Assembly: GCA_947624775.1 (NCBI GenBank) | Contig: CANQLT010000009.1 | Location: 1-45,751, forward strand | Direction: 5' to 3' | DNA from: an uncultured Monoglobus sp. | Lineage (GTDB): Bacteria > Bacillota > Clostridia > Monoglobales > Monoglobaceae | Length of the DNA stretch: 45,751 nt | Part shown: positions 26,351-28,320 of the stretch, piece by piece | Layout of the letters: each line of letters opens with the position of its first letter | Numbering within the stretch: position 1 is the first letter of the stretch | The notes under the pieces: model-generated | Database searches by the model: none | What the model saw: only the letters and a program-made list of their open reading frames with translations | What the model was told of the DNA's origin: nothing | Position numbers and translations under genes: made by a program

Positions 26351-26383
26351 AACCCCCGCGGCAATCCCGCGGGGGTTGTTTTT
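26351..26383. terminator. Bidirectional terminator after rplQ
   Basis: An 11-bp GC-rich stem AACCCCCGCGG / CCGCGGGGGTT with a 5-nt loop, then GTTTTTT; A-rich sequence on the left makes it work for the minus-strand toxin gene as well. Confidence 0.92.
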
Positions 26384-26637
26384 TAATATTTTTTATAAAT
26401 TTGACCGCGGTTTCCCGCGTCTATAACGCAAACAATATATTTGCCGTTATCAACAGTGAATATAATACGATAATCTCCGACGCGCAGTCTGAAATAACCT
26501 TCTCTGTCGGTTATCGCGGCAATGTCTCCGTTATCCGGAAGTTTATAAATTGCCCTGAGCAGCCGCTCTTGTTGATTACGCGGCTGTTTCATTATGAATT
26601 TCAAAGGTTTTTTCTCAATTACAACATGATATTTCAT
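26383..26637 (-). CDS. RelE/ParE-superfamily toxin
   Basis: An 84-residue toxin. It has the family pattern: KYHVVIEKKPLKFIMKQP at the N-terminus, a helical RLLRAIYKLPDNGD segment, then the beta core GYFRLRVGDYRIIFTVDNGKYIVCVIDAG with the YRI motif, and a C-terminal RGQIYKKY. Such proteins are ribosome-dependent mRNA interferases. Translation is coupled to the antitoxin by a 4-nt ATGA overlap. It is the second gene of the pair and ends at the shared terminator with rplQ. Confidence 0.85.
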   Translation of the reverse strand: MKYHVVIEKKPLKFIMKQPRNQQERLLRAIYKLPDNGDIAAITDREGYFRLRVGDYRIIFTVDNGKYIVCVIDAGNRGQIYKKY

Positions 26638-26855
26638 AAGGTGATGTCCAATTCCTTTGCCAAATCTTCAATCGAAACTGTCTCGTGTTTGTCGGGACTT
26701 TTGTCGCTTAAATATTCATCAACCAACTTGCGGCAATAAATGTCGTCTTCAATATCATCATCATAGGTAACGCCTTTGAGAAATGTTACAATATATGCCA
26801 GTTTATATTCGGGAAGATTATTTATCAAATCAATCGCGATTTCTCTGTTTGACAT
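26634..26855 (-). CDS. Antitoxin of the RelE-type module
   Basis: A 73-residue acidic protein, first gene of the pair. The N-terminal SNREIAIDLINNLPEYKLAYIVTFLKG helix pair resembles small antitoxins that accompany RelE toxins in Clostridia, and the DETVSIEDLAKELDI-like C-terminus (KHETVSIEDLAKELDITL) should wrap the toxin. The identification rests on size, gene order and overlap with the toxin more than on a strong domain. Ribosome site AAAGGGTGA is just upstream. Confidence 0.75.
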   Translation of the reverse strand: MSNREIAIDLINNLPEYKLAYIVTFLKGVTYDDDIEDDIYCRKLVDEYLSDKSPDKHETVSIEDLAKELDITL

Positions 26856-26918: not shown

Positions 26919-26955
26919 CTCTTTTTCGGTTTATAAAATACAAATATTGCATTTT
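26911..26955. repeat. 45-nt direct repeat, copy A
   Basis: It matches 28257-28301 at 44 of 45 positions. It spans the -35 box of the RelE-module promoter and the sequence upstream of it. Its far end also supplies the -35 of the plus-strand promoter at 26947. Confidence 0.9.
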
Positions 26956-26975
26956 TGTCAGTGTTATGCTAAAAT
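26947..26975 (+). promoter_or_regulatory. Promoter of the structured RNA unit
   Basis: TTGCAT (26947-26952), 17-bp spacer, TAAAAT (26970-26975). The predicted start, about 26982, coincides with the first base of the long hairpin. Confidence 0.6.
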
Positions 26976-26981
26976 AATCTT

Positions 26982-27148
26982 GCAACATAATTTCACAGTT
27001 TAACAGAACAGATAACGTGTGTCATTTTTATCATTGATAAAAATGCACGCTCTGTTTACGCGTTGTCTGTTCTTGACATTGTTGTGAAATTGTGTTGCAG
27101 CAATTGGAGTTTGTGCATTTTTTTGCGCGGCTCCGGCTGCGCATTTTT
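26982..27148 (+). ncRNA. Candidate structured small RNA or attenuator leader
   Basis: About 167 nt. Three nested stems make one long hairpin: 26981-26997 with 27083-27099 (17 bp, one U-G pair), 27005-27021 with 27057-27073 (17 bp, three G-U pairs), and an apical CATTTTTATC / GATAAAAATG (27023-27045). The wobble pairs are valid only for the plus-strand RNA, pointing to selection on that transcript. An intrinsic terminator follows: an 8-bp stem from 27124 to 27143 capped by C(UCCG)G and followed by TTTTT (27144-27148). Transcription would either stop here as a free RNA or read on into the Cys-rich and HicB-like genes. No known RNA family was recognised. Confidence 0.5.
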
Positions 27149-27166: not shown

Positions 27167-27373
27167 ATGATATTTGATGTAACGGGAGTGGAATTGATTC
27201 CGGGTAATTATGGGAAGGATTGTCCCGGCAATGATAACAATTATGATGAGATAACGCATCCTTACGCATGTTGTAACGAGTGTGATTATTATTTATGCTG
27301 CATTTCCGAGGATTATAAGAGGTATTGTAAAATGTGTACGACATATAATTGTCCGCGAAAAATGGAGGTTTAA
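27167..27373 (+). CDS. Cysteine-rich small protein
   Basis: A 68-residue protein with nine cysteines (19, 35, 36, 39, 44, 45, 54, 57, 62) arranged as CPGN, ACCNEC, YLCCISED, YCKMC and NCPRK. This looks like a metal-binding or disulfide-stabilised mini-fold. There is no signal peptide, so it is probably cytoplasmic and metal-binding. The ATG at 27167 has ATGGGG 8 nt upstream. Its stop TAA is followed at once by the ATG of the HicB-like gene, whose GGAGG site lies within this gene's last codons, so the two are coupled. I do not recognise a named family and give no function; it takes the place where a HicA toxin would be expected. Confidence 0.7.
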   Translation: MIFDVTGVELIPGNYGKDCPGNDNNYDEITHPYACCNECDYYLCCISEDYKRYCKMCTTYNCPRKMEV

Positions 27374-27718
27374 ATGACTGTAAAAGAATATATGAAACTG
27401 CCTTATAACTTTATTATCCAAAAAGTCAATGACGAGAGCGGCGAGTATTATTACGCGCGCGTAATGGAGCTTGACGGCTGTCAGAGCGACGGCGAAACGT
27501 TTGATGAGGCGTATCAAAATATTTTGGATGCAATGGAAGGATATATTGAGACAAAGCTTGAAAACGGATTTGATGTGCCGCTGCCGAACAGCGTGGACAG
27601 ATACAGCGGCAAATTTGTTGTCAGAGTTCCGAAATCTCTTCATCGCTCCCTTGCCGCGGCCGCGGAAAGAGAAGGCGTTTCGCTCAATCAATACGTGCTG
27701 TATAAACTCAGCAAATAA
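27374..27718 (+). CDS. HicB-family protein without a HicA partner
   Basis: A 114-residue protein. Residues 1-68 form the HicB fold (YNFIIQKVNDESGEYYYARV, MELDGCQSDGETFDEAYQNI, LDAMEGYIETKL), and residues 75-114 form an Arc-type ribbon-helix-helix unit (KFVVRVPKSLHRSLAAAAER, GVSLNQYVLYKLSK). HicB normally neutralises the HicA mRNA interferase and represses its own promoter. No HicA-like gene (with its G-S-H motif) is present on either side; the upstream coupled gene is the Cys-rich protein. It may be an orphan regulator or the partner of that protein. Confidence 0.85.
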   Translation: MTVKEYMKLPYNFIIQKVNDESGEYYYARVMELDGCQSDGETFDEAYQNILDAMEGYIETKLENGFDVPLPNSVDRYSGKFVVRVPKSLHRSLAAAAEREGVSLNQYVLYKLSK

Positions 27719-27756
27719 CAAATCCCCGCGGCTTGATATGCCGCGGGGATTTGTTT
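27719..27756. terminator. Bidirectional terminator between the HicB-like gene and the minus-strand antitoxin
   Basis: A 14-bp perfect stem, CAAATCCCCGCGGC / GCCGCGGGGATTTG, with a 7-nt loop and TTT after it; it also overlaps the end of the minus-strand antitoxin gene. Confidence 0.9.
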
Positions 27757-27952
27757 AATCCCAATTAATGTCTTCGTGCGATATTGTCTCACCGTTTTGG
27801 TATTCGGCTCGCGCCGCCTTTATAGCCGCCAGATCGTCGGGTGTTGCAATATCATCGGGAACAAATCGCTGAGCTATTTCAAGAAGTAAAATCTGCTCAC
27901 GCATAGGCATATAATCTATTATTTCCAAAAGTTGATTTTTGATTGGTGACAT
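27755..27952 (-). CDS. Putative antitoxin (second gene of toxin-first pair)
   Basis: A 65-residue protein: MSPIKNQLLEIIDYMPMREQ, a LLLEIAQRFVPDDIATPDDLAAIKAARAEY helical stretch, and an acidic end NGETISHEDINWD. Its N-terminal pattern resembles the antitoxin at 26634-26855, and its Asp/Glu-rich tail fits toxin binding. The ATG at 27952 lies 1 nt after the toxin stop, with AAGGGGGT upstream; in-frame sequence before it belongs to the toxin gene in another frame. The gene order, toxin first, is like higBA. Confidence 0.7.
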   Translation of the reverse strand: MSPIKNQLLEIIDYMPMREQILLLEIAQRFVPDDIATPDDLAAIKAARAEYQNGETISHEDINWD

Positions 27953-27953
27953 A

Positions 27954-28202
27954 TTATTGTACCCCCTTATACACTTCTCCGCGCGGTGCAATCTTTTCAA
28001 TTAACACTTCGTCTTGTGACATATACGAAAATAATATACGCCAATTTCCAACGCGAATCCGAAAACTGTCTTTCGTACCCTTCAAAGGCTTAACATCACC
28101 GTCAGGTAATTTTTCAACGGCGGTTTTAATCCTTAGCTTTGTTGGTCGGTCCATAGCGTTAATAGTCTTTATTGCTTGCTTTGAATACCTTATATTTTTC
28201 AT
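27954..28202 (-). CDS. RelE/HigB-like toxin
   Basis: An 82-residue RelE-superfamily toxin: KNIRYSKQAIKTINAMDRPTKLR, TAVEKLPDGDVKPLKGTKDSF and RIRVGNWRILFSYMSQDEVLIEKIAPRGEVYKG. The G-D-V-K-P-L-K-G and R-VGNWRI motifs are characteristic. The ATG at 28202 is preferred to the upstream TTG at 28214; the ribosome site is weak (TTGGG). It precedes its antitoxin, the reverse of the two other modules in this window. Confidence 0.85.
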   Translation of the reverse strand: MKNIRYSKQAIKTINAMDRPTKLRIKTAVEKLPDGDVKPLKGTKDSFRIRVGNWRILFSYMSQDEVLIEKIAPRGEVYKGVQ

Positions 28203-28235
28203 AACAATACCCAATCTATAAATTTAACTGCTTTA

Positions 28236-28264
28236 ATTATATCACAATGTATTAAAATTTACAA
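28236..28264 (-). promoter_or_regulatory. Promoter of the toxin-first module
   Basis: Minus-strand -35 TTGTAA (28259-28264), 17-bp spacer, -10 TATAAT (28236-28241) preceded by TTGTGA. It is nearly identical to the promoter at 26890-26918. Confidence 0.75.
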
Positions 28265-28301
28265 CTCTTTTTCGGTTTATAAAATATAAATATTGCATTT
28301 T
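28257..28301. repeat. 45-nt direct repeat, copy B
   Basis: It matches copy A (26911-26955) at 44 of 45 positions. The sequence right after it, 28295-28317, also matches the ribosome-site region of the Cys-rich gene (27141-27164) apart from one indel and one substitution. So this copy joins two parts that lie about 190 nt apart in the other locus. Confidence 0.88.
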
Positions 28302-28320
28302 CATTATGAGGTTGATACGA

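Follow-up and report, generated by a model that had tools for sequence, protein, structure and literature searches.

A family of structured leader RNAs in part of the Clostridia, absent from Rfam 15, as probable cis-acting attenuators with a predicted pseudoknot switch

The DNA analysed here (the window) is a stretch of 45,751 nucleotides from an uncultured Monoglobus sp. (assembly GCA_947624775.1, contig CANQLT010000009.1), in which a short structured RNA on the plus strand is followed by a gene for a Cys-rich protein and a gene for a HicB-family protein. ParE-type toxin modules on the minus strand (26383-26855 and 27755-28214) flank the RNA and these two genes, and the promoter regions of the two modules are duplicates of each other. 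The parts of the locus are listed below, with pairings as predicted.

26947-26952, plus strand: -35 hexamer TTGCAT, part of a sigma-A type promoter (26947-26975)
26970-26975, plus strand: hexamer TAAAAT of the extended -10 TATGCTAAAAT, separated from the -35 by a 17-nt spacer
26981-26998, plus strand: 5' arm of stem P1, partner of the 3' arm ending at 27099
27005-27017, plus strand: 5' arm of stem P2, partner of 27061-27073
27024-27044, plus strand: apical A/U hairpin AUUUUUAUC-AUU-GAUAAAAAU
27039-27052, plus strand: apical 3' arm AAAAAUGCACGCUC, to which the switch pairs in the pseudoknot (anti-antiterminator)
27061-27073, plus strand: 3' arm of P2
27083-27099, plus strand: 3' arm of P1
27101-27122, plus strand: switch segment CAAUUGGAGUUUGUGCAUUUUU, whose alternative partners are 27039-27052 and the terminator 5' arm
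27124-27134, plus strand: terminator 5' arm and loop UGCGCGGCUCC, which in the antiterminator pairs with 27106-27116
27135-27148, plus strand: terminator 3' arm and U-run
27167-27373, plus strand: Cys-rich 68-aa protein, putative first regulated gene, with its ATG 18 nt past the U-run
27374-27718, plus strand: HicB-family protein (PF05534, E 4.6e-16), second gene of the presumed operon

The Cys-rich gene sits before the HicB-family gene at the place expected for HicA. Its product belongs to a Cys-rich family with the motif TGI.L.PGN.GKDC.GN, to which no family of Pfam or NCBIfam corresponded.

The RNA from 26982 to 27148 has a minimum free energy of -73.2 kcal/mol, compared to a mean of -40.3 kcal/mol for shuffled sequences (z -8.96), and none of 200 dinucleotide shuffles was as low. 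This fold, which includes U-G pairs in the plus-strand RNA, confirms the 119-nt hairpin that a preliminary description of this DNA had proposed (it spans 26981/2-27099) as well as the terminator, a GC stem with a U-run that ends at 27148. The promoter with 17-bp spacing put forward in the same description is likewise found in the window, with its -35, spacer and extended -10. Across 121 copies of the RNA family described below, the best hexamer pair scores on average 9.7 out of 12, compared to 8.2 after shuffling; the spacer measures 17 nt in 89 copies, TGn precedes the -10 in 95, and the -10 ends 5-7 nt upstream of the P1 stem in 101. Most copies of the family carry a sigma-A promoter starting at the hairpin, and because of these statistics the window promoter stands above chance. 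Two features had gone unremarked, namely that the window RNA belongs to a large family and that its 3' part holds a second, stronger predicted structure.

A query of 281 bases gave matches in 27 of 100 related genomes, mostly across the hairpin tip and the 3' part. A covariance model (R1), built from 13 copies, identified 21 copies in the own genome, a 22nd match being the window copy read on its reverse strand. In the same bacterial family the RNA is present in 36 of 38 genomes, with up to 37 matches per genome, some of the weak ones being reverse-strand echoes. Two genomes (G009 and G018) are almost devoid of it while their siblings mostly have several to tens of matches, and the Cys-rich gene is still present in both. 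With the covariance model, the RNA was found in 97 of 391 sampled Clostridia genomes and in 54 of 222 genera, the copy numbers per genome in this class survey being 'at least' values. In a sample of 398 genomes of the phylum, the own genome was the sole match at E 1e-6; since this sample takes in other Clostridia, only part of that class has the RNA family. Named pattern matches, only partly confirmed by the covariance model, come mostly from uncultured gut Oscillospiraceae, Ruminococcaceae, other Clostridia and Monoglobus metagenome assemblies. A phage origin was considered and rejected: three pattern matches were obtained in IMG/VR, and the two that the model confirmed both run off the end of their stretch.

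The homologues share an architecture of promoter, P1, a small 5'-side A/U bulge, P2, an A/U tip, a linker and a GC terminator, in which P1 usually counts 12-18 bp, P2 is variable and the A/U tip is conserved. At one locus (L089:4009-4589) three copies stand in tandem, about 215 nt apart, with one gene downstream. In a search of 12 loci against Rfam 15 (4227 families), T-box included, no family exceeded its gathering threshold, and at a permissive E-value nothing credible fell on the element, in agreement with the earlier statement that no known riboswitch or T-box is recognisable here. No known leader of such a kind was found in the literature. The RNA represents a structured RNA family that the Rfam 15 catalogue lacks.

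The covariation among homologues that the preliminary description had named as a check is present. Over the 121 copies, 94.5% of the pair cells hold a standard pair, compared to 73.7% after shuffling and 37-53% after sliding, compensatory changes on both sides occur in 37 of the 40 modelled base pairs, and the covariation score is 0.599 compared to 0.199 shuffled and less than 0.1 slid. The alignment behind these counts had been fitted to the model, so that independent tests matter. For the helices of the 3' part, we compared the duplex energy of cognate partners with that of permuted partners: the apical 3' arm with the switch gave -12.4 compared to -10.0 kcal/mol, the switch with the terminator 5' arm -13.9 compared to -11.2 kcal/mol, and the two terminator arms -15.3 compared to -10.1 kcal/mol. 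For each of the three helices, 0 of 10000 permutations reached the observed energy. In a non-redundant set (n=42, less than 70% identity across apical arm and switch) the z values were -9.6, -8.4 and -13.6, respectively, while the control pairing of apical arm and terminator, which is not expected to form, gave 0.1. Moreover, where the usual GGAG core of the switch is missing, both pairing partners have changed along with it, as in locus L073 with switch UAAAUCAAAGC, apical arm UGCUUUGAUU and terminator GUGAUUUA. In the window this core occupies 27106-27109, its predicted partners being CUC in the apical arm and CUCC in the terminator. A mutually exclusive antiterminator, as an attenuator needs, is thereby kept by covariation. 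In the stems, sequence matters little and pairing alone is kept; outside them, recurrence is limited to the apical A/U tracts and a bulge of AAUA type, and no conserved ligand-binding core was recognised in the family copies. The idea of P1 and P2 as length-matched arms was dropped, the correlation of -0.49 being an artefact of a too rough automatic helix split.

Genes adjoining the 121 loci were called with a simple hexamer gene caller. Among the 115 copies with a called neighbour, 94 have the next gene on their own strand and 21 have it on the opposite one. A same-strand gene starts less than 60 nt past the RNA in at least 58 of the 121 copies (48%), with a sharp mode at 18-25 nt; this number is a lower bound because the caller overlooked the small Cys-rich gene behind the window copy. 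Upstream members of tandem arrays before one gene account for further copies. At sequence level, these copies have what defines an attenuator, an intrinsic terminator in the 5' leader directly before a gene. The downstream genes encode BspA-type LRR secreted proteins, AbrB-like proteins with a zinc ribbon, copper-amine-oxidase-N secreted proteins and several small-protein families. Thirty loci with the Cys-rich gene were compared (25 genomes of the class, several genera and families); about half have the RNA before the gene and the remaining orthologous loci lack the leader, which indicates that the leader is a portable module.

Such portability before orthologous genes, together with the multicopy and patchy occurrence and with a precise element-free site in the window, would also fit a mobile element or dispersed repeat of the MITE, REP or bcr1 type, bringing its promoter, hairpin and terminator along and landing before genes by chance. 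That site, a duplicated flank at 28232-28317, bears at 28292-28300 the repeat GCATTTTT, which occurs three times in the element itself (26949-26956, 27115-27122 and 27141-27148). Judged from its sequence, the flank reads as the product of a deletion between the first and third GCATTTTT and not as an insertion target. Relatives show deletions between the first and second and between the first and third repeat, with two different junctions, and in one of them (G007) the deletion from the first to the second repeat left the terminator alone. On these grounds a mobile-element insertion in the window was ruled out, the element-free sites being losses between repeats. The preliminary description had feared a degenerate transposable inverted repeat found at many sites; the sites are indeed many, but the copies are old, covarying and at a fixed place before genes. 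Within a genome they have diverged to a median identity of 64%, and recent near-identical copies at unrelated sites were not found within the genome, the closest pairs (L059/L060 at 90%, L055/L057 at 83%) standing before homologous genes. A passive repeat, moreover, would have no need of covariation in P1, P2 and the switch, and we regard this explanation as improbable.

An RNA antitoxin or toxin-antitoxin regulator, also suggested earlier, would suit the window copy, with its ParE-type modules on either side and a HicB-family gene downstream, but most other copies precede the unrelated BspA-type LRR, AbrB-like, copper-amine-oxidase-N and other genes instead of toxin modules, and neither a toxin target nor complementarity was found. 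We give this role very little credence.

About 20 of the 121 copies (about 16%, including L016, L019 and L022) are convergent to the neighbouring gene and have no downstream gene of their own. They keep all three helices (z -4.5, -6.1 and -8.1, n=18), and at one site such copies adjoin the same AMP-binding gene in three species. They either act as free RNAs or are recently orphaned leaders. Together with the RNA's own promoter and terminator, these copies speak for a trans-acting small RNA of about 167 nt that would act on other RNAs or on proteins through its double-stranded arms or its exposed CUCU/CUCC loops, which are complementary to Shine-Dalgarno sequences, the copies before genes being incidental. 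The strong fixed spacing of the majority to same-strand genes, the covariation of the antiterminator and the lack of Hfq in the genus argue against it, and it appears an unlikely explanation of the family as a whole.

Taken together, we consider it probable that the RNA is a cis-acting transcription attenuator of a family uncatalogued in Rfam 15, with a predicted regulation by readthrough; position, covariation and the set of terminator, antiterminator and anti-antiterminator give good support to the earlier suggestion of an attenuator for the Cys-rich and HicB-like genes. In the proposed mechanism, the constitutive-looking sigma-A promoter would start the RNA at the base of the long, two-part hairpin, and the emerging switch would pair with the apical 3' arm to form a pseudoknot. 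The terminator could then form and the RNA would end as a leader of about 167 nt. When the apical arm is unavailable, the switch would instead pair with the terminator 5' arm as antiterminator, allowing readthrough into the Cys-rich and HicB-family genes. At the tip, the apical hairpin and the pseudoknot would compete for the same A-run of the A/U tracts. Since pairing alone is kept in its stems, the hairpin is probably a scaffold by which the tip is brought near the switch.

In the window tail alone, the antiterminator state is predicted at -20.8 kcal/mol compared to -16.7 kcal/mol for the terminator state, so that the hairpin pseudoknot would be needed for the stop. In 63 of the 121 copies, the tail folds with a minimum free energy more than 1 kcal/mol lower than that of the terminator state, compared to 33% with a shuffled switch. 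Over all copies the predicted balance between antiterminator and terminator seems close, as expected of a switch; with so small a difference in predicted energy, it is uncertain which of the two is the default. We infer the folding order, the direction of the switch and its default state, and likewise its control by a ligand, a protein or a cue of folding rate. No LoaP protein scored above the cut-off in the 38 genomes of the bacterial family, of which 2 have Hfq, so neither protein is a general partner of the RNA. Each termination event should release a free RNA of about 167 nt, which together with the copies lacking a downstream gene makes an additional free-RNA role a candidate. It is conceivable, though we hold it with reserve, that gut Clostridia possess a large regulatory network of RNAs built on a single conformational switch with no conserved aptamer, which would serve both as cis attenuator, for genes of surface proteins and other accessory genes, and as standalone RNAs possibly trans-acting on family members.

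A quarter of the sampled Clostridia genomes may have up to a few dozen loci each under a leader RNA outside Rfam; among the products of the genes downstream of it are secreted LRR proteins of gut bacteria. Three competing helices that are readable directly from covariation are unusual for expression platforms, and for that reason the switch is testable with a handful of point mutants.

Expression platforms with a terminator, an antiterminator and an anti-antiterminator are known from the trp attenuator, the T-box and SAM-type riboswitches. With these the family shares the 5' leader, the intrinsic terminator, the mutually exclusive antiterminator and a third, deciding helix; unlike in these, no known aptamer, T-box or leader peptide was recognised in the RNA family, and its deciding helix is a predicted pseudoknot that reaches the tip of a long hairpin whose sequence is free. 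In the fluoride and preQ1-I riboswitches a pseudoknot strand overlaps the expression platform, and in our family, too, the pseudoknot would compete for the terminator/antiterminator strand; the family differs from both in having two hairpin arms of variable sequence (about 13 and about 15 bp), a putatively opposite polarity and no Rfam match. Many of the candidate structured RNAs described from the human microbiome are palindromic and terminator-like (PMC8040213) and, compared by description alone, resemble our family as computationally found, terminator-containing RNAs of gut bacteria. The bcr1 repeats of Bacillus cereus, described as mobile and with TTTAT motifs (PMC6542083), are like our family short and dispersed in tens of copies per genome; in contrast to them, the copies of our family are old and covarying, with a fixed promoter/terminator layout and gene linkage.
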